Shown: piece after piece, positions 4,932 through 43,517 of the stretch | Layout of the letters: each line of letters opens with the position of its first letter | Numbering within the stretch: the first letter of the stretch is position 1 | NCBI GenBank assembly: GCA_947476955.1 | Contig: CANJSS010000007.1 | Coordinates: forward strand, 1 to 43,517 | From: Flavobacteriales bacterium | GTDB taxonomy: Bacteria; Bacteroidota; Bacteroidia; Flavobacteriales_D; Crocinitomicaceae | Reading direction: 5' to 3' | Length of the DNA stretch: 43,517 nt | Made by a program: the position numbers and the translations under genes | Notes under the pieces: model-generated | What the model saw: the letters and a program-made list of their open reading frames with translations, nothing else | Databases searched by the model: none | What the model was told of the DNA's origin: nothing

Positions 4932-4987
4932 AAAATAAAAATTTCGGTAAATGTAATTGAAATACTAAGAAATTAAGTGTTTGAAGC

Positions 4988-5018
4988 AAAAAAAAGTCCG
5001 CTAATAAGCGGACTTTTT
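4988..5018 (-). terminator. Terminator of the thrS-infC-rpmI-rplT operon
   Basis: AAAAAGTCCGCT and AGCGGACTTTTT (4991-5002 and 5007-5018) form a perfect 12-bp stem with a 4-base loop. On the minus strand it is followed by eight T residues. It sits 21 bases beyond the rplT stop and just upstream of kup. Its near symmetry suggests it could act in both directions. Confidence 0.92.
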
Positions 5019-5039
5019 ACTATATAGAGTTAAAATAAT

Positions 5040-5387
5040 TTATTTATTCACTGCATCACAAACCGCCTTGAAAGCTTCAGGGTGGTTCATAGCTAAATCT
5101 GCAAGAACCTTTCGGTTCAATTCAACGCCATTTTTGTGCACTGCTCCCATAAATTGAGAATAGCTCATTCCATGCTGACGTGCACCTGCGTTAATACGCG
5201 CGATCCACAAAGAACGGAAGTTTCTTTTCTTTTGCTTACGACCTTCATAAGCATAATTTAAACCTTTTTCTACTGCATTTTTTGCAACAGTCCAAACATT
5301 TTTTCTGCGACCAAAGTAACCTTTGGCAAGCTTCATCAAGTTTTTTCTACGAGCTCTTGATGCTACGTGATTTACTGATCTTGGCAT
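5040..5387 (-). CDS. rplT: 50S ribosomal protein L20
   Basis: L20 binds 23S rRNA early in large-subunit assembly and in many bacteria represses its own operon. The 115 residues match the family length. The start is the standard [20 protein letters not shown], with a very basic N-terminal extension, and a globular domain with [19 protein letters not shown] follows at about residues 71-90. It is the last gene of thrS-infC-rpmI-rplT, a widely conserved order. The 110-base gap from rpmI is unusually long for adjacent ribosomal genes. Confidence 0.98.
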
Positions 5388-5497
5388 AATTTTACGTTTT
5401 TTGATAAGGAGTGCAACTTTATTTCAGAAGACTTAGTTACTCGTTACCGGGTTAAACAATTTTAAACCTAATTGTAGTTTCGTCTGTAAAAAACAGA
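5388..5497 (-). other. rpmI-rplT intergenic leader, possible RNA structure
   Basis: This 110-base stretch separates two co-directional ribosomal genes. On the minus strand it contains the small hairpin TCTGT(N5)ACAGA right after the rpmI stop region, a bulged stem around GGTTTAAAATTGTTTAACC, and the tandem GTAACGAGTAAC. Such spacing could host a translational operator for L20, as known in other phyla, but I cannot recognise a published L20 leader motif here. Confidence 0.25.
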
Positions 5498-5695
5498 TTA
5501 CTTCATGCACAATTGCAATTTAATATTCGACTCATCTGCTTTGTGAACCAAACCATCTGCTGTCAAATTTCTCTTACGCTTAGTCGACTTCTTAGTCAAG
5601 ATGTGACTTTTAAAAGCGTGTTTTCTCTTAATTTTACCGCTTCCAGTGATTGTGAATCTCTTCTTTGCACTGGATTTAGTTTTCATTTTTGGCAT
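5498..5695 (-). CDS. rpmI: 50S ribosomal protein L35
   Basis: L35 is a small basic protein of the large ribosomal subunit. The 65-residue product begins [20 protein letters not shown] and carries the [15 protein letters not shown] region typical of the family. Length and composition are normal. It lies between infC and rplT, the expected place, with 94 bases separating it from infC. That gap contains a repeat also found downstream of purL. Confidence 0.97.
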
Positions 5696-5743
5696 CTCTC
5701 TTCGTTTTTAAACGTTACCTCTATATAGCATCTTTAGGGTTTT

Positions 5744-5792
5744 GGTATTCAGGATTTGGCAAACCAAATTCCGTGTTCCAAATTCCAAATTA
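5744..5792 (-). repeat. Degenerate AATTTGGAATTTGG intergenic repeat, copy 1
   Basis: Read on the minus strand, the sequence begins at the infC stop codon with TAATTTGGAATTTGGAA (5792-5776) and ends with AAATCCTGAATACC (5757-5744). The first block matches 15 of 17 bases, and the second 10 of 14, of a similar arrangement immediately after the purL stop (32827-32788). Between the blocks, GGAATTTGG and CCAAATCC can form a bulged stem. It looks like a small dispersed element or a shared 3'-end structure. Confidence 0.4.
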
Positions 5793-22715: not shown

Positions 22716-24380
22716 ATGGATCGTTTTTGGCAAATATTTTCTTTCGATGATAAAGAACCACTGATTTTTTCACAACTGGATTTTTGGCTGTTTTTCTTGC
22801 TCGTTATGGTTGTTTTTTCAGCTATACACAAGTTCTTTCTGGTTCGAAGTATTTTCTTGACAGCAATCAGTATTTTCTTTTATTTCAAAGCATCGGGGCT
22901 ATTTATTATTCTCCTTGGGATGAGTTTAATCGGAAATTATTTTTTTGGTAAATGGGTACATACTGCCAAAACACCAAATTCAAAGAAATGGCTAATTGGT
23001 ATAGCTGCTTTTTTAAATATAACTGTATTGGCCTATTTCAAATACGCCTACTTCTTTACAGATTCCTTCAATGAAATGTTTCATACAGATTTCCAGATTT
23101 TCAACCATTTATCGTATTGGGGGAATAGCTTTTTTGATGGAAATTACTTTGCTGTAGATCAAATAATTTTGCCTATTGGGCTTTCTTTCTTTACGTTTCA
23201 AAGTATTTCGTATTTCATTGATATTTATCGAAAAGAGGTTGAACCAGTAACTAACTTTTTTGACTACACATTCTTTGTTACGTTTTTTCCGCATTTATTA
23301 TTAGGTCCGATTGTTCGAGCAAAAGACTTTCTTCCACAGATTCGACAACCATACGCATTGAATAAAGACGATTTTAGCGGTGCGATAATTCAAATAGTAA
23401 AAGGTTTACTGAAGAAAATTGTTCTAGCAGATTATATTGCTGTTCATTTTATAGACAAAGTAGTTGAAACTCCAGAAGCATTTCCAGGTTTCGTGAGTAT
23501 TTTGGCAATGTGGGGATATTCCTTGCAAATTTATGGGGATTTCTCAGGTTATACAGATATTGCAATTGGCTTATCCCGATTAATGGGCATCAAATTACTT
23601 GAAAATTTTAATTCTCCCTACAAAGCAACTAGCGTTGCAGATTTTTGGAGAAGGTGGCACAAATCATTAGGCTCTTGGCTACGCGACTATTTATATATTC
23701 CATTGGGTGGAAATAAATCGGGAGGTATTGGAACCTACATCGCAACAGTTATCATTTTTGTTTTCCTCATTTTTATTACGCAATGGTATGAACTTATCTT
23801 TGTCTACATTGGATTAACTGCCATATATATATTTGGTGTTTTGGTTATACCGAATTTCAAAAAATACATTCACCGTGATTTAAACCTTCTCATTACGATG
23901 GTTGTAGGTGGTTTATGGCATGGCGCAAGTGAAAATTTCGTGATTTGGGGAACAATGAACGGACTTGCATTAATTCTATACAACCATTGGAAAAAGATCT
24001 CACCATACGAAAACAAAAGTTGGCTGCTTGTTCATTTCTGGAAAGTTTTCCTAACCTTCAATTTTATCACTTTTACCAGAATCTGGTTTCGTTTGGAAGA
24101 AGAGGGCGCACCAATGGCAATGCTTAACCATATTTGGAATAAGTTTGACTTGGAATGGACAACATTTATAAGCGTATTAACTACTTACCAAAGTGTTTTT
24201 TGGGTAATATTAGTTGGATATATTCTCCATTGGCTGCCGCAAAATATAAAAGCGCTTTGGGAAAATTTATTCAAAAGTTTTTCCATGCCTGTTCAAGCAA
24301 TTGCAGTTGCAATAATTGTGATTTTGATGTACCAAGCAGTTTCGGATACATTCAAGCCATTTGCCTATTTTGAATATTAA
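22716..24380 (+). CDS. MBOAT-family O-acyltransferase (AlgI/PatA/DltB-like)
   Basis: Membrane-bound O-acyltransferases of this type take an acyl group, usually acetyl, from a cytosolic donor across the inner membrane for O-modification of extracellular polymers. The 554 residues have about eleven hydrophobic segments. The family motifs are present: PIGLSFFTFQSISYFID, DFWRRWHKSLGSWLRDY with His315, and GGLWHGASENFVIWG with His402, which matches the catalytic His of AlgI. It is the last gene of a tight SGNH-SGNH-MBOAT operon; in alginate and peptidoglycan systems SGNH partners complete the transfer. No polymerase or glycan-synthesis gene is adjacent, so the acceptor is unknown. Its stop overlaps the convergent paaZ stop. 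Confidence 0.93.
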   Translation: MDRFWQIFSFDDKEPLIFSQLDFWLFFLLVMVVFSAIHKFFLVRSIFLTAISIFFYFKASGLFIILLGMSLIGNYFFGKWVHTAKTPNSKKWLIGIAAFLNITVLAYFKYAYFFTDSFNEMFHTDFQIFNHLSYWGNSFFDGNYFAVDQIILPIGLSFFTFQSISYFIDIYRKEVEPVTNFFDYTFFVTFFPHLLLGPIVRAKDFLPQIRQPYALNKDDFSGAIIQIVKGLLKKIVLADYIAVHFIDKVVETPEAFPGFVSILAMWGYSLQIYGDFSGYTDIAIGLSRLMGIKLLENFNSPYKATSVADFWRRWHKSLGSWLRDYLYIPLGGNKSGGIGTYIATVIIFVFLIFITQWYELIFVYIGLTAIYIFGVLVIPNFKKYIHRDLNLLITMVVGGLWHGASENFVIWGTMNGLALILYNHWKKISPYENKSWLLVHFWKVFLTFNFITFTRIWFRLEEEGAPMAMLNHIWNKFDLEWTTFISVLTTYQSVFWVILVGYILHWLPQNIKALWENLFKSFSMPVQAIAVAIIVILMYQAVSDTFKPFAYFEY

Positions 24381-26425
24381 TTTTGATCCAATTTCTTTAC
24401 CATAGTTAAGATTGTAGCCATTGCTACTGTTTCTCCGGTTTCATCGTAAACGTCTACCAAAAATTTCACAATTCCTTTGGCGATATCCTCTTCAGATTTC
24501 TTTTCCTGATCCACTTTTTCTTTAACGGTAAATCGTACACCAATTGTTGCACCTGGATAAACTGGTTTTGTAAACCGTGCATCTTCCAAACCATAATTCA
24601 ATAAGACAGGGCCTTTTTTAGGATCTACGAATAATCCAGCGGCTTTAGATAAAATAAAATAACCATGTGCAACGCGGCGTTCAAATATTGTTCCTTCCAA
24701 AGAAGTTGCATCCATGTGCGCGTAGAAATTATCTCCTGAAACGTTTGCAAAGTTCACAATATCAGCATCCGTAACCGTATGTTTATGTGTAAAAACAGTT
24801 TCGCCGATGACTAACTCTTCAAAATGTTGTCGGAACACGTGCGGATTAGCTTCAGGCATTTTTGCACCAACCTGAAATTGCTGTGTAATCCGAGTGATAG
24901 TTGTTGGATGTCCCTGAATTGCCGTTCGTTGTAAATAATGCAAAACGCCACGCTTTCCACCCATTTCTTCGCCACCACCCGCTCGACCAGGTCCGCCATG
25001 CGTCAATAATGGCATTGGAGAACCGTGACCTGTGGATTCTTTTGCACAATCTTTATTTAACACTAGAATTCGACCGTGCATACTTGCTGCACCGATTACA
25101 TATTCCATCGCTTCTTGATCATCTGGCGTTACAATCGAAGAAACGAGCGAACCTTTGCCCATTTTTGCCAATTCAATAGCTTCATCTAATGTTTTATATG
25201 GCATTACTGTCGCAACCGGACCAAAAGCTTCAATTTCATGAACATCTGTATTATTGAACGGATCATTATTACTAAATAGAATTGGCGAGAAAAATGCACC
25301 TTTGTTTTTGTCTGCACCTACAACTTCAAAATCGTCTAGCGATCCAAAAACAATTTTTTGCGACTTCGCTAATTGTTCTACGCTTGCTCGAACACTTTCT
25401 ACTTGTCCACGAGTTGCAAGAGATCCCATTCTTACACCTTCCATACTTGGATTCCCAATTACAGTGGTTGCGAGACGCGCTGCAATCGCTTTTTCAACCT
25501 CATCGGTCAAATTTTCCGGCACAATTATTCGTCGAACCGCCGTACATTTTTGTCCAGCTTTAACGGTAATTTCCTTTGCTGCTTCTTTTATGAATAAATT
25601 AAATTCTTCCGTTCCAGGAACTGCTTTTTCACCTAAAATAGTTGCGTTTAGAGAGTCTGCTTCCAAATTGAACATGACGCTATTTTGAACAATCTGAGGA
25701 GAAGATTTTAATAGTAAACCTGTCGAGGCGCTTCCAGTAAATGTTACCATGTCTTCAGATGAAACGCTATCAAGAATTCCTCTTGCCGACCCACATACCA
25801 ATTGCAATGCGCCTTCAGGGAGAATTTTTGATTCTATAATATCGTGCACCATAACTTCCGTTAAATAGCAAGTTGCACCGGATGGTTTTACTATTGCAGA
25901 AACACCGGCCATCAAATTGACAGCAATTTTTTCCAACATTCCCCAAATTGGGAAGTTGAAGGCATTAATATGAATTACTACTCCCTCTCTAGGAACCATA
26001 ATGTGGTGGCCGATAAACGAACCGTTTTTTGATAATGGAGCAGCCACACCATCCACATAATAAGGAAGGTCAGGAAATTGGCGCCGCAGCGAAGCATTCG
26101 CAAATAAATTTCCAATTCCGCCCTCAATATCAATCCAAGAATCGATGCGCGTTGCACCAGTCCACGAACTTACTTCGTAATATCTTTCTTTTTTAGTCAT
26201 TAGATGCAAGGCCAATGCTTTTAGCATTCTTCCTCTTTCCTGAAAAGTCATTTTACGCAGTGCGTGGCCACCAGTTTTTCGGCCATAATCCAACATTGCA
26301 GCAAAATCCAAACCTATACTGGAAGCTTCGCCAATTTTTTCACCTGTAATCGCGTTAAAGAGATTTGCTTCTGTCCCTTCACCATCGAACCATTTTCCTA
26401 ACGCATAACTTTGATACCGTTGCAT
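24377..26425 (-). CDS. paaZ: PaaZ: oxepin-CoA hydrolase / aldehyde dehydrogenase fusion
   Basis: PaaZ opens the ring of oxepin-CoA with its MaoC-like domain and oxidises the resulting aldehyde with its dehydrogenase domain, in aerobic phenylacetate breakdown. The 682-residue length is almost the same as E. coli PaaZ (681). The dehydrogenase part shows FNLEAD with Glu255 and AGQKC with catalytic Cys294. The C-terminal MaoC part (from about 535) shows GDNFYAH with Asp565 and His570, four residues shifted from the E. coli catalytic pair. No other paa gene is in the window. A complete promoter on the minus strand lies about 145 bases upstream, leaving a long leader with palindromes. Confidence 0.93.
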   Translation of the reverse strand: MQRYQSYALGKWFDGEGTEANLFNAITGEKIGEASSIGLDFAAMLDYGRKTGGHALRKMTFQERGRMLKALALHLMTKKERYYEVSSWTGATRIDSWIDIEGGIGNLFANASLRRQFPDLPYYVDGVAAPLSKNGSFIGHHIMVPREGVVIHINAFNFPIWGMLEKIAVNLMAGVSAIVKPSGATCYLTEVMVHDIIESKILPEGALQLVCGSARGILDSVSSEDMVTFTGSASTGLLLKSSPQIVQNSVMFNLEADSLNATILGEKAVPGTEEFNLFIKEAAKEITVKAGQKCTAVRRIIVPENLTDEVEKAIAARLATTVIGNPSMEGVRMGSLATRGQVESVRASVEQLAKSQKIVFGSLDDFEVVGADKNKGAFFSPILFSNNDPFNNTDVHEIEAFGPVATVMPYKTLDEAIELAKMGKGSLVSSIVTPDDQEAMEYVIGAASMHGRILVLNKDCAKESTGHGSPMPLLTHGGPGRAGGGEEMGGKRGVLHYLQRTAIQGHPTTITRITQQFQVGAKMPEANPHVFRQHFEELVIGETVFTHKHTVTDADIVNFANVSGDNFYAHMDATSLEGTIFERRVAHGYFILSKAAGLFVDPKKGPVLLNYGLEDARFTKPVYPGATIGVRFTVKEKVDQEKKSEEDIAKGIVKFLVDVYDETGETVAMATILTMVKKLDQN

Positions 26426-26504
26426 ACTTTCTATTTAGAACTTTAAAATTAATGATTCTTAAATCAATACCGCTGAAGTAGTAAAAATCATTTTTATTTT
26501 TTTT

Positions 26505-26535
26505 ATCGATACTTTTTGTTGTTTTATCGATAAAA
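26505..26535. repeat. Two TATCGATA palindromes 20 bp apart in the paaZ leader
   Basis: TATCGATA occurs at 26505-26512 and again at 26525-26532, the second within the 14-base perfect palindrome TTTTATCGATAAAA (26522-26535). The centres are exactly 20 bp apart, about two helical turns, a spacing typical of sites for paired dimers. The second site fills the spacer of a plus-strand promoter. It lies upstream of the paaZ start and downstream of the predicted paaZ promoter. Confidence 0.55.
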
Positions 26536-26547
26536 TAGTTATATTTG
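26519..26547 (+). promoter_or_regulatory. Plus-strand promoter facing the dus gene end
   Basis: TTG (26519-26521), an 18-base spacer and TATATTTG (26540-26547) form a complete consensus promoter pointing away from paaZ. No convincing gene lies downstream: the next 166 bases hold only a palindrome, and then dus is read on the other strand. It could make a small or antisense RNA, or it may be chance in AT-rich DNA. Confidence 0.4.
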
Positions 26548-26569
26548 TAGTCAAAAGGTGATTTTCTTT

Positions 26570-26597
26570 CAAATCTAAATCTCCTACCTGATTACAA
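26570..26597 (-). promoter_or_regulatory. paaZ: Predicted paaZ promoter
   Basis: On the minus strand TTG (26597-26595), a 17-base spacer and TAGATTTG (26577-26570) match the Bacteroidota consensus in full. Transcription would begin near 26563, about 138 bases before the paaZ ATG, and would cross the two TATCGATA sites. An AGTGTCA half-site lies just upstream at 26613-26619. Confidence 0.55.
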
Positions 26598-26633
26598 ACC
26601 AACCATTTTTTTAGTGTCAATGAGCATATAATT

Positions 26634-26663
26634 TATTTATAGTGTCACTTGACACTATAAATA
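26634..26663. repeat. Perfect 14-bp inverted repeat, probable operator
   Basis: The arms 26634-26647 and 26650-26663 are exact reverse complements around a 2-base centre; the core is AGTGTCACTTGACACT. The tight centre suits a dimeric DNA-binding protein better than an RNA hairpin, and no T tract follows on either strand. A third half-site, AGTGTCA, stands at 26613-26619. The cluster sits just upstream of the predicted paaZ promoter. Confidence 0.65.
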
Positions 26664-26713
26664 TGAATGAACCTATTTTATATGTTCTCACGTGCAACAT
26701 TGAGAATGTAAAT

Positions 26714-27706
26714 TTAAACGAATTCGAAATTATTTTCATTTTCCGCAACGAACCTTAGTATTTCATTGATTTCTTGCAGATCAAAGGAAGTTACTAGTTT
26801 CATGCGGTAATCTTTAAAGTGAGCAATTCCTTTAAAATAATTCGTATAATGGCGCTTCATTTCAGCAATTGCTAAGGTTTGACCTTTCCATTTTACGCTC
26901 ATATCCAGGTGTTCTATAGCCGCTTCCACGCGATCCTTAATAGTCGGAGGCGCTAAATATTGGCCAGTAGCCATAAAATGTTTAACTTCCTTAAAAATCC
27001 AGGGATAACCGATACTTGCTCTGCCAATCATTATTCCATCCACGCCGTAACGATTTTTATATTCCAGTGCTTTTTCTGGGGTATCGATATCGCCATTTCC
27101 AAAGATTGGAATACGCATGCGTGGATTATTTTTCACTTCGCCAATTAAAGTCCAATCCGCATCTCCTTTATACAGTTGAACCCGCGTTCTACCATGAATA
27201 GAAATGGCCTCTACCCCAACGTCTTGGAGTTTTTCCGAAGTACTGACAACAAATTTAGTTTCATTATCCCAGCCCAAACGGGTTTTGATAGTTACAGGTA
27301 AATTCGTTTCTTTTACAATTGCATCCGTCATCCGAATTAGCTTTGGAATATCTTGCAGCATCCCTGCTCCAGCCCCTTTACACGTAACTTTTTTTACAGG
27401 ACAACCAAAATTAATATCGATAATATCTGGATTTGTTTTTTCGATTATACGTGTTGCTTCCCGCATGCTCTCGATATCGTAACCGAATATTTGAATCCCC
27501 ACCGGGCGTTCGTATTCGTAAATGTCCATTTTTTGAACACTTTTCGCTGCATCCCGAATCAATCCTTCGGAGGAAATGAATTCCGTGTACATCAAATCTG
27601 CCCCGTGTTTTTTGCAAAGTGCTCGAAAAGGCGGGTCACTCACATCCTCCATTGGAGCCAATAAAAGTGGAAATTCACCTAATTCTATGTCACGGATTTT
27701 TACCAT
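26714..27706 (-). CDS. tRNA-dihydrouridine synthase (DusB-like)
   Basis: This flavoenzyme reduces uridines in tRNA D-loops using NADPH. The 330 residues show an FMN-binding TIM barrel beginning PLLLAPMEDVSDPPFR and the catalytic DINFGCPVKKV with Cys102. The HGRTR and GNGDI motifs follow, then GVDGIMIGRASIGYPWIF, and a helical C-terminal tRNA-binding domain with EMKRHYTNYFKG. I placed the start at the ATG at 27706 rather than 14 codons upstream because a -7 box lies inside the longer version and the shorter start leads straight into the barrel. The subclass (DusB) is inferred from motif style. The gene stands alone. Confidence 0.92.
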   Translation of the reverse strand: MVKIRDIELGEFPLLLAPMEDVSDPPFRALCKKHGADLMYTEFISSEGLIRDAAKSVQKMDIYEYERPVGIQIFGYDIESMREATRIIEKTNPDIIDINFGCPVKKVTCKGAGAGMLQDIPKLIRMTDAIVKETNLPVTIKTRLGWDNETKFVVSTSEKLQDVGVEAISIHGRTRVQLYKGDADWTLIGEVKNNPRMRIPIFGNGDIDTPEKALEYKNRYGVDGIMIGRASIGYPWIFKEVKHFMATGQYLAPPTIKDRVEAAIEHLDMSVKWKGQTLAIAEMKRHYTNYFKGIAHFKDYRMKLVTSFDLQEINEILRFVAENENNFEFV

Positions 27707-27710
27707 GGTG

Positions 27711-27718
27711 CAAAGATA
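27711..27718 (-). promoter_or_regulatory. -7 box abutting the dus start codon
   Basis: TATCTTTG on the minus strand matches the consensus and is followed by CACC and then the ATG. Only four bases separate box and start codon, so a leaderless or nearly leaderless mRNA is predicted. The -33 region is not a clear TTG. Confidence 0.5.
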
Positions 27719-27832
27719 GGGATTTTTTGAATTAAGATTTTCCAGCAAATAGGATTAGGCTTTGCATAAGCATTTATGAAAAACCGGATGGCTATCAAAA
27801 ACAGTCCCGTCAATTTCTTATGGTATTACATT

Positions 27833-29431
27833 TTATTCGAAAATAATTTTTTGAGCCGAACTTCCTTGATTGGATTGAAAAACAACAACATATACTCCCG
27901 AGGCTTCTGGGAAACTTATCTCTGTGACCTTTTCCAATATCAACTGGGAAAATACTTCTCTACCCGAAAGGTCGACAATTGTAAGCAATCCTTCACTATC
28001 AATCTGTTCTAAATTGATTGAAAAAGTGCCTGTTGATGGATTCGGAAATAACTTAAATGTAAAAAGTTCTTCTTCGATAATGGCATTGAAGCTTTCAACC
28101 TCGCACGGAAATACGAATGGCGAATTATACAGACTTCGCAAGCTACCGGCAATATTAATTACATTTTGGACATTTCCTAATCGAGTACTTGACTTGTCGT
28201 AAATAAATGCATAATCAGAACAAATAGAAGTCCCTGCAGACAATATATCTTCCGAAATGGTAAAAATTCCCCGTCTATCCCCATTTGGATTGTTGATATT
28301 GCCTTCATGCCAAGCCGTCGGATCATTTGGATTCCCTGAAAATAAAAAATTGGTTGGTGAATTGGAAACTCCAGTACTACCTTGGTAGCCTAGGCCCCCA
28401 TAAAGCCATGGCGAACCGTCTCCCCATTTTGCATTCATAAAATTCCAAATGACATCAATCCCTCCAATTTGTAATTCGTATGGCGCTTGAGTAGTGCCTG
28501 TGAAATACGCAAAGGAATGCATATCGTGACTCAAGCTGACAATCCCTTGACACGGCGGATTTAAACCATATCCTGGTTTGCCAGCATCTGCCTCGTCATT
28601 CTCATCCCCATTGTAACCAAATGCTACACTATTTGCACTGTTACAACCAATGTAATCATCCGTATAATTACCAATATCAAAATCTATAAATATAGTTTGT
28701 TTATAATTGTGATAATTTGTATTGCTTCGATTAATCACTCTAACATTTAAAAAAGTAGTATTATTTAAATAATCGCCAGAATTATATTGGTAAAACATAC
28801 CATGTAATTCTATACCCAAAGAATTTGGATTTGACCCAGAACGATCATTCAAGATTACATAAACAGCTTCATCGCCGCGAATATCTGGATAATCCCCATC
28901 CGACGGGGTATAAATTCCATCCCCATTATTATCTATATAGGGAGCTAATTGAGCTACAACGCCAAGACTTACATCACCATTTCCTGGCCAATCAAGTAAT
29001 GATTGAGGAATAGAATAACCAACATTCGAATAATTCGAAATATGATTATTAATTTCTAGTTTTGTTACCTCCCAAATTGACTCTTGATATTGGTTACTGT
29101 AGTCCAAAGATGTATATTGTCCAGAATTTGCAATTGGACCTGAATGCAAATGATAAGGTGTAAAATTTGAACCATAATGTCCAGAACTAAAATATACATC
29201 ACCATATTGATCTTCTGCTCCGACCCAAAAAGCACCCAAAAATATTGTTGATAGACCTGAACCTTTTGGAATTTCATACCCGGCACTTCCTATGATACTG
29301 TTGTTGAAAAAAAAACCTTCATCGCCTATTATAGCCGAAGCATTATTTTTATCAATAATTCTGGTGTTATTAACTTGAGAATTGCAAGAAATTGCAACAA
29401 GCATAGCGGATAAGTTGATCAAGATTTTCAT
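27833..29431 (-). CDS. Secreted protein with T9SS type A C-terminal sorting domain
   Basis: This 532-residue protein has a signal peptide (MKILINLSAMLVAIS, followed by CNSQ; the lipobox is weak) and ends with the type IX secretion sorting domain. That domain starts near residue 459 with FKLFPNPSTGTFSI, passes through VDLSGREVF and GVYVVVF, and finishes QKIIFE. It is thus probably exported through the outer membrane and anchored or released. A DNNGDGIYTPSDGDYPD stretch (167-183) looks like a calcium-binding loop. The central part is rich in Asn, Gly and Tyr, with no enzyme motif that I recognise. The ATG at 29431 is preferred over an upstream TTG. No T9SS machinery gene is nearby. Adhesion or a matrix role is possible but unproven. 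Confidence 0.85.
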   Translation of the reverse strand: MKILINLSAMLVAISCNSQVNNTRIIDKNNASAIIGDEGFFFNNSIIGSAGYEIPKGSGLSTIFLGAFWVGAEDQYGDVYFSSGHYGSNFTPYHLHSGPIANSGQYTSLDYSNQYQESIWEVTKLEINNHISNYSNVGYSIPQSLLDWPGNGDVSLGVVAQLAPYIDNNGDGIYTPSDGDYPDIRGDEAVYVILNDRSGSNPNSLGIELHGMFYQYNSGDYLNNTTFLNVRVINRSNTNYHNYKQTIFIDFDIGNYTDDYIGCNSANSVAFGYNGDENDEADAGKPGYGLNPPCQGIVSLSHDMHSFAYFTGTTQAPYELQIGGIDVIWNFMNAKWGDGSPWLYGGLGYQGSTGVSNSPTNFLFSGNPNDPTAWHEGNINNPNGDRRGIFTISEDILSAGTSICSDYAFIYDKSSTRLGNVQNVINIAGSLRSLYNSPFVFPCEVESFNAIIEEELFTFKLFPNPSTGTFSINLEQIDSEGLLTIVDLSGREVFSQLILEKVTEISFPEASGVYVVVFQSNQGSSAQKIIFE

Positions 29432-43187: not shown

Positions 43188-43517
43188 GTGAAAGCAAAAG
43201 GATAGATTAGAATTTTATTGTTAAATTAAAACTAGACCATAATATTAAAAATATTTGAGAAATATACTTTCAAGCCATTCAGCATAAATTCAACTTAATT
43301 AATTGATAAATTTTCAAAAATTAATTAAGTTGAATATAAAATTTGCAAATATTTGTTGAATTTAAGAATCAAAAAAAGTAGTGAGTATTAATTTATTTCA
43401 GTAAGATTCAAAAGTGATTGCTATCTTTAAAAAGTAAAATATCAAGCTGCTAATCCAAATGTCGAAAAAAACAGTGATTTCAACTTTATAGGACTTTTAG
43501 CAATACGTTGATTGAAT
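43188..43517. other. Right-edge region without assignable gene
   Basis: These 330 very AT-rich bases hold no convincing gene. On the plus strand an ATG at 43459 gives only ten codons. On the minus strand one frame is open from the edge to a TGA at 43442-43444 (ending SLFFSTFGLAA), which might be the tail of a gene beyond the window, but nothing confirms it. TATCTTTA at 43419-43426 resembles a -7 box with one mismatch and could serve a gene to the right. A perfect inverted repeat is listed separately. Confidence 0.4.
43288..43335. repeat. Perfect 17-bp inverted repeat
   Basis: ATTCAACTTAATTAATT (43288-43304) and its exact reverse complement (43319-43335) flank a 14-base loop. With only two G-C pairs per stem and no T tract next to it, it does not look like an ordinary terminator. 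Six bases further on, ATTTGCAAAT (43341-43350) is another perfect palindrome. The pair may be a protein-binding region or an unusual end-of-transcript structure. Confidence 0.55.

Follow-up and report, generated by a model that had tools for sequence, protein, structure and literature searches.

The region upstream of paaZ in a Flavobacteriales bacterium: an apparently ordinary intergenic control region with one candidate regulator site

The stretch of DNA upstream of paaZ in this Flavobacteriales bacterium reads as an ordinary intergenic control region that carries one plausible, if modest, candidate site for a regulator. Judged from the sequence and its relatives, the likely main promoter of paaZ, designated here P2, lies outside the stretch that was originally described; it appears to be the better supported promoter, and it was missed in the initial annotation. 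The interpretation that we favour, with the balance of probability tipping modestly towards it, combines P2 and a more distal promoter, P1, with a direct repeat that would be the site of a regulator, a hairpin after dusB that would be specific to this species, and a plus-strand promoter match that would have arisen by chance.

The locus and the comparison set

The window, by which is meant the whole 43,517-nucleotide stretch of DNA that was analysed, is one contig (C7) of a draft genome (G000) of 2.70 Mb that is 95% complete. The motifs in question sit within a gap of 288 bp between two genes, both of which are located on the minus strand. The first, dusB (26714–27748), is the upstream neighbour of paaZ and encodes a tRNA dihydrouridine synthase (TIGR00737, 317.8 bits with a cut-off of 293.3); the second, paaZ itself (24377–26425), encodes the bifunctional phenylacetate degradation protein with its Aldedh and MaoC domains (TIGR02278, 855.6 bits with a cut-off of 562.8). 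Elsewhere, the genome has two copies of paaA, on contigs C5 (L122) and C120 (L123), both of which score above the family cut-off, together with one weak match below it. The PaaE model matches two adjacent ORFs on C5, of which one exceeds its cut-off and the other falls short of it.

For comparison, paaZ upstream regions at 110 loci were taken from two collections and reduced to 98 distinct regions; one locus (L110) was left out because its start is missing, and 11 others, by subtraction, are repeats of the last 120 bases of another region. Among the relatives recovered by way of paaZ, those with names are for the most part MAGs that bear the label Flavobacteriales or Crocinitomicaceae. A script assigned the start codons of paaZ in this set, perhaps wrongly in some cases, and the region from L006 has a length of just 147 nt. 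In the sister species (G018), the paaZ protein is 98% identical to that of the window, and the DNA of the locus is 87% identical over about 5 kb. In two other genomes, G002 and G009, the place upstream of paaZ that dusB occupies in the window is taken by a divergent ORF. The paaZ protein tree contains 43 rows, namely those with more than 81.5% identity plus L030.

The proximal promoter

P2 (26444–26451, minus strand) is recognized by a -7 box, TAATTTTA, that lies 26 nt before the paaZ ATG, with a predicted start near 26439. A box of the form TANNTTT[AG] is present at -42 to -20 in 46 of the 98 upstream regions, whereas 500 shuffles that preserve single-base composition only give 6.2 on average and 13 at most; in the remaining 52 regions, a strict box was not found in that interval. 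The sister species also has TAATTTTA at -26, and G002 and G009 carry TAATTTTA or TATTTTTA at -27. Within the window, a -7 box is found at -22 to -29 before 6 of the 25 genes checked (those with ATG starts among the 34 listed), and paaZ is one of the six. A TTG about 17–19 nt upstream of the P2 box is absent in the window. Across the set, a TTG at N17–21 precedes 2 of the 46 P2 boxes, versus 4 of 46 at a control distance, so there is no excess. In a study of F. psychrophilum (PMC9723704), the median 5' UTR is given as 24 bp and the -7 boxes are placed at -12 to -5; by that placement, transcription from P2 is predicted to begin about 14 nt ahead of the ATG.

The distal promoter and the direct repeat

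P1 (26570–26597, minus strand) had been described as a promoter of full consensus, and so it is: TTG (26597–26595) is followed by N17, TAGATTTG (26577–26570), and then AAAG, with a predicted start near 26565. In the window, it matches the Bacteroidota sigma-A pattern TTG-N17-19-TAnnTTTG exactly, while G002 and G009 have a spacing of N16 and the -7 box of the sister species reads TGAGTTTG. Four of the 98 upstream regions (those of the window, the sister species, G002, and G009) contain the core TTG-N16/17-T[AG]NNTTTGAAAG at -172 to -177, compared with 6 of 29400 shuffled sequences that keep dinucleotides. Across these four genomes, the -7 box begins at -152 to -158. Thus, P1 is probably a real promoter.

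Between P1 and P2 lies a direct repeat, TCGATAAA-N13-TCGATAAA, with a period of 21 bp (26502–26530, minus strand), which is the candidate regulator site. This element had originally been reported as two TATCGATA palindromes spaced by 20 bp. Both are indeed there, at 26504–26511 and 26525–26532, and the second falls within the spacer of the plus-strand promoter match, as was noted; however, their start-to-start distance is 21 rather than 20, and what is conserved is the direct repeat, because the half-sites in G002 and G009 are not palindromes. In the form YCGATWAA-N13-YCGATWAA, the repeat and the P1 core co-occur in exactly 4 of the 98 regions, and in all four the two units are located at -104 to -106 and -83 to -85 from the paaZ ATG. 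In 98000 shuffled sequences, again with dinucleotides kept, the repeat is never seen (11 times if any spacing from 0 to 40 is allowed), although both this pattern and that of the P1 core were written after the four regions had been seen. A looser form, TCGATWAA-N11-14-TCGATWAA, gives 8 matches in 26 genomes of the genus, 3 of them before paaZ, versus 3 in all for the reversed control. Since the paired TCGATA element and the P1 core recur at fixed positions in three other genomes, one regulator site is plausible.

It might be argued that the direct repeat reflects nothing but chance resemblance, or that it has been inherited neutrally in a few relatives. Consistent with this, it is present in just those four regions, the four genomes amount to two pairs of related genomes, and its genome-wide enrichment is little or none. 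However, the exact 21-bp period, the constant distance to the ATG, and the shuffled sequences (with the proviso, given above, on when the pattern was written) all argue for something more, and in the paaZ tree the four repeat-bearing genomes fall into two lineages with starred branches between them, which force two changes. Chance or neutral inheritance is judged doubtful. As the tree is a gene tree, ancestry with losses, exchange, and convergence are all compatible with it.

Because genome-wide enrichment is little or nil in the four genomes, there is no evident regulon that shares the direct repeat. With up to two mismatches and both strands searched, the matches number 67 in the window's genome (63 for the reversed control), 56 in the sister species (41), 85 in G002 (73), and 71 in G009 (65), with no clear excess. 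The surroundings of other matches were inspected at 15 of 30 loci and at two later ones; many of these matches lie inside ORFs, and the rest are in gaps of unrelated genes. A pattern that combines the repeat with TATTTTTA matched G009 alone among 240 genomes, a result that says little because three of the four regions lack TATTTTTA. No tandem YCGATWAA was seen in the paaA stretches searched. In the portions of the literature covered on phenylacetate regulators of Bacteroidetes, 21-bp direct repeats, and paaZ of Flavobacteriia, nothing was found on the site described here.

Similar elements were observed at a few other places. In G009 (C33), three YCGATWAA-like units with a 21-bp period (L144, 1501–1550) follow an ORF that by eye is response-regulator-like and precede an ORF of 150 aa. 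A YCGATWAA-like pair in G019 (C2; L037, 1501–1529) lies in the gap of two divergent ORFs that also look, by eye, like response regulators. In G002 and G009, a similar pair of 21-bp period, with 1 and 2 mismatches, is present in the same gap before an ORF that appears by eye to be RNase H-like (L142 and L160, 1501–1529).

The inverted repeat downstream of dusB

The dusB-proximal part of the gap contains a perfect 14-bp inverted repeat with a spacer of 2 nt (26634–26647 and 26650–26663) and a third copy of AGTGTCA (26613–26619, plus strand), both as originally described. Neither was found in the sister species. The inverted repeat begins 51 nt past the dusB stop and forms a strong hairpin, with an RNA folding energy of -15.1 kcal/mol on each strand (z of -6.95 on the minus strand and -5.10 on the plus strand). 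Because no U-tract follows it, it is referred to here as a hairpin after dusB and not as a proven terminator, and it is not listed by the terminator scan. An exact copy of its core, AGTGTCANNTGACACT, occurs in 1 of the 26 genomes of the genus, not being found in the other 25, and in 2 of 240 genomes of the family. The second of these copies, in G144, is contained in AAAAAAAGGAGTGTCAATTGACACTCCTTTTT between converging ORFs, in a hairpin flanked by an A-tract and a T-tract, and is apparently part of a terminator. Furthermore, in a DNA search of the 240 family genomes, with at most 3 candidates scored for each genome listed and among the matches listed, the sister species matches the paaZ-proximal part of the gap (query positions 114–288), 14 other genomes give short matches of about 24–62 bases that all lie beyond query position 134, and the dusB-proximal 113 bp has no match in the 239 other genomes.

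An alternative is that the AGTGTCA inverted repeat serves as an operator particular to this species, bound by a repressor or activator that recognizes the palindrome and acts on P1 from upstream. The perfect 14-bp symmetry and the additional half-site would suit such a role, and no arm of 14 bp or longer arose when the 288-bp gap was shuffled 2000 times with dinucleotides kept (at least 12 bp in 9 shuffles and at least 10 bp in 57), a test chosen after the motif had been seen. However, the genome contains a single exact site: searching for AGTGTCANNTGACACT elsewhere yielded no exact or one-mismatch copy, and the two matches with two mismatches both lie inside ORFs, one of them in an ORF that is ribosomal-protein-like by eye and the other towards the 3' end of an ORF of 289 aa. 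Neither AGTGTCA nor TGACACT was found in the stretches searched around the two paaA copies, and larger stretches there (L125 and L126) hold only four isolated 6-mers, GTGTCA or TGACAC. In the places searched, the inverted repeat thus does not recur at co-regulated genes or at orthologous sites, as the operator of a regulon would be expected to do, and the identical core belongs to the apparent terminator of G144. An operator is therefore considered unlikely, and a hairpin after dusB is the likelier reading.

The plus-strand match and the density of motifs

The plus-strand promoter-like match (26519–26547) consists of TTG (26519–26521), N18, and TATATTTG (26540–26547), and its -7 box faces that of P1 at a distance of 22 bases, as was reported. 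Although the sequence is there, the full form is present in one of the four related upstream regions, the window's own; it was not found in the sister species, and G002 has TATATTTG on the plus strand with no TTG at N16–20. The match is thus most likely due to chance. A scan of the window with Rfam gave no match at the gathering score.

From these elements, the initial annotation had suggested two regulators and possible transcriptional interference or a small RNA. Spelled out, one regulator would act on the AGTGTCA palindrome and one on TATCGATA, and the convergent promoters would result in interference or in an antisense small RNA against the 3' end of dusB. All of the elements exist, their geometry is indeed convergent, and they exceed shuffles. 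Across the 2000 shuffles described above, two or more copies of TATCGATA never occurred, and two or more full promoters occurred in 2 (one or more in 84), although these tests too were selected post hoc. Yet the full plus promoter, the inverted repeat, and the half-site are all missing from the sister species, G002 lacks the appropriately spaced TTG, the inverted-repeat core is nearly confined to this genome, and the dusB-proximal DNA is without a match among those listed. Seen in this light, interference, a small RNA, and a second regulator are unsupported, and the proposal as a whole is very improbable; the parts of it that find support are P1 and, as one plausible regulator site, the direct repeat. 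As for TATCGATA itself, the suggested genome-wide search shows it to be common, with 77 sites versus 43 for the pattern read backwards.

The cluster was also said to be far denser than other gaps. Among the 14 gaps longer than 60 bp between the 34 listed genes, this is the sole one with two strict promoters; however, relaxed -7 boxes number 3 here and 4 in the 858-bp gap at 4932–5789, and a perfect inverted repeat that is longer, at 17 bp with a loop of 14 nt, is present elsewhere in the window, at 43288–43335. Two other perfect inverted repeats, at 4991–5018 and 2704–2733, have A- and T-rich ends and are terminator-like. A scan of 24000–29000 for sigma-70-type promoters, whose consensus is not that of the Bacteroidota, found 16, with 16.4 expected.

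A model for paaZ and its relation to known systems

Taken together, these results suggest a model in which a putative regulator that binds the direct repeat would sit between the two promoters, at about -91 to -63 of P2 and +36 to +64 of P1. From this position it could either help P2, whose -7 box has no TTG at the customary spacing, or block elongation from P1. The dusB transcript would most likely carry, at its 3' end, a species-specific hairpin formed by the 14-bp inverted repeat. A stronger version holds that a dedicated regulator in this Crocinitomicaceae-type genus reads the 21-bp repeat and switches between the two paaZ promoters, the site having been retained or having re-evolved in two lineages despite the differing upstream neighbour gene; this is offered tentatively, as an idea that is more probably wrong than right. 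To our knowledge, gene control in uncultured Crocinitomicaceae has been little studied, and for that reason a site that lends itself to testing, next to a catabolic gene, has some value, although it is not surprising. The case also shows how comparison with relatives can sort out an eye-catching cluster of motifs: the promoter close to paaZ, beyond the stretch first described, recurs in about half of the relatives; P1 and the direct repeat have support across four genomes; and the palindrome, which is private, is perhaps no operator.

Direct-repeat operators with a 21-bp period are known for regulators of the AraC/XylS type. Like them, the candidate site lies upstream of a promoter and consists of two asymmetric half-sites separated by two turns of the helix; it differs in that the half-site, YCGATWAA, is matched to no known family, and its regulator is putative. 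The hairpin after dusB is like that of an intrinsic terminator in its strength and its position shortly past a stop codon, and unlike it in having no U-tract. Phenylacetate (paa) genes are controlled by regulators of the PaaR/PaaX type, and this control has reportedly been studied in Burkholderia and for TTHA0973 of Thermus. A regulator acting here would likewise govern a paa gene, although neither the AGTGTCA motif nor the tandem YCGATWAA accompanies paaA in the stretches searched. Finally, with respect to the sigma-A promoters of Flavobacteriia, as given in PMC9723704 (-7 box TAnnTTTG), P2 differs in that its box ends in A rather than G and has no TTG at the usual distance, whereas the -7 boxes of both P1 and P2, and the short leader predicted for P2, are like those of this class.
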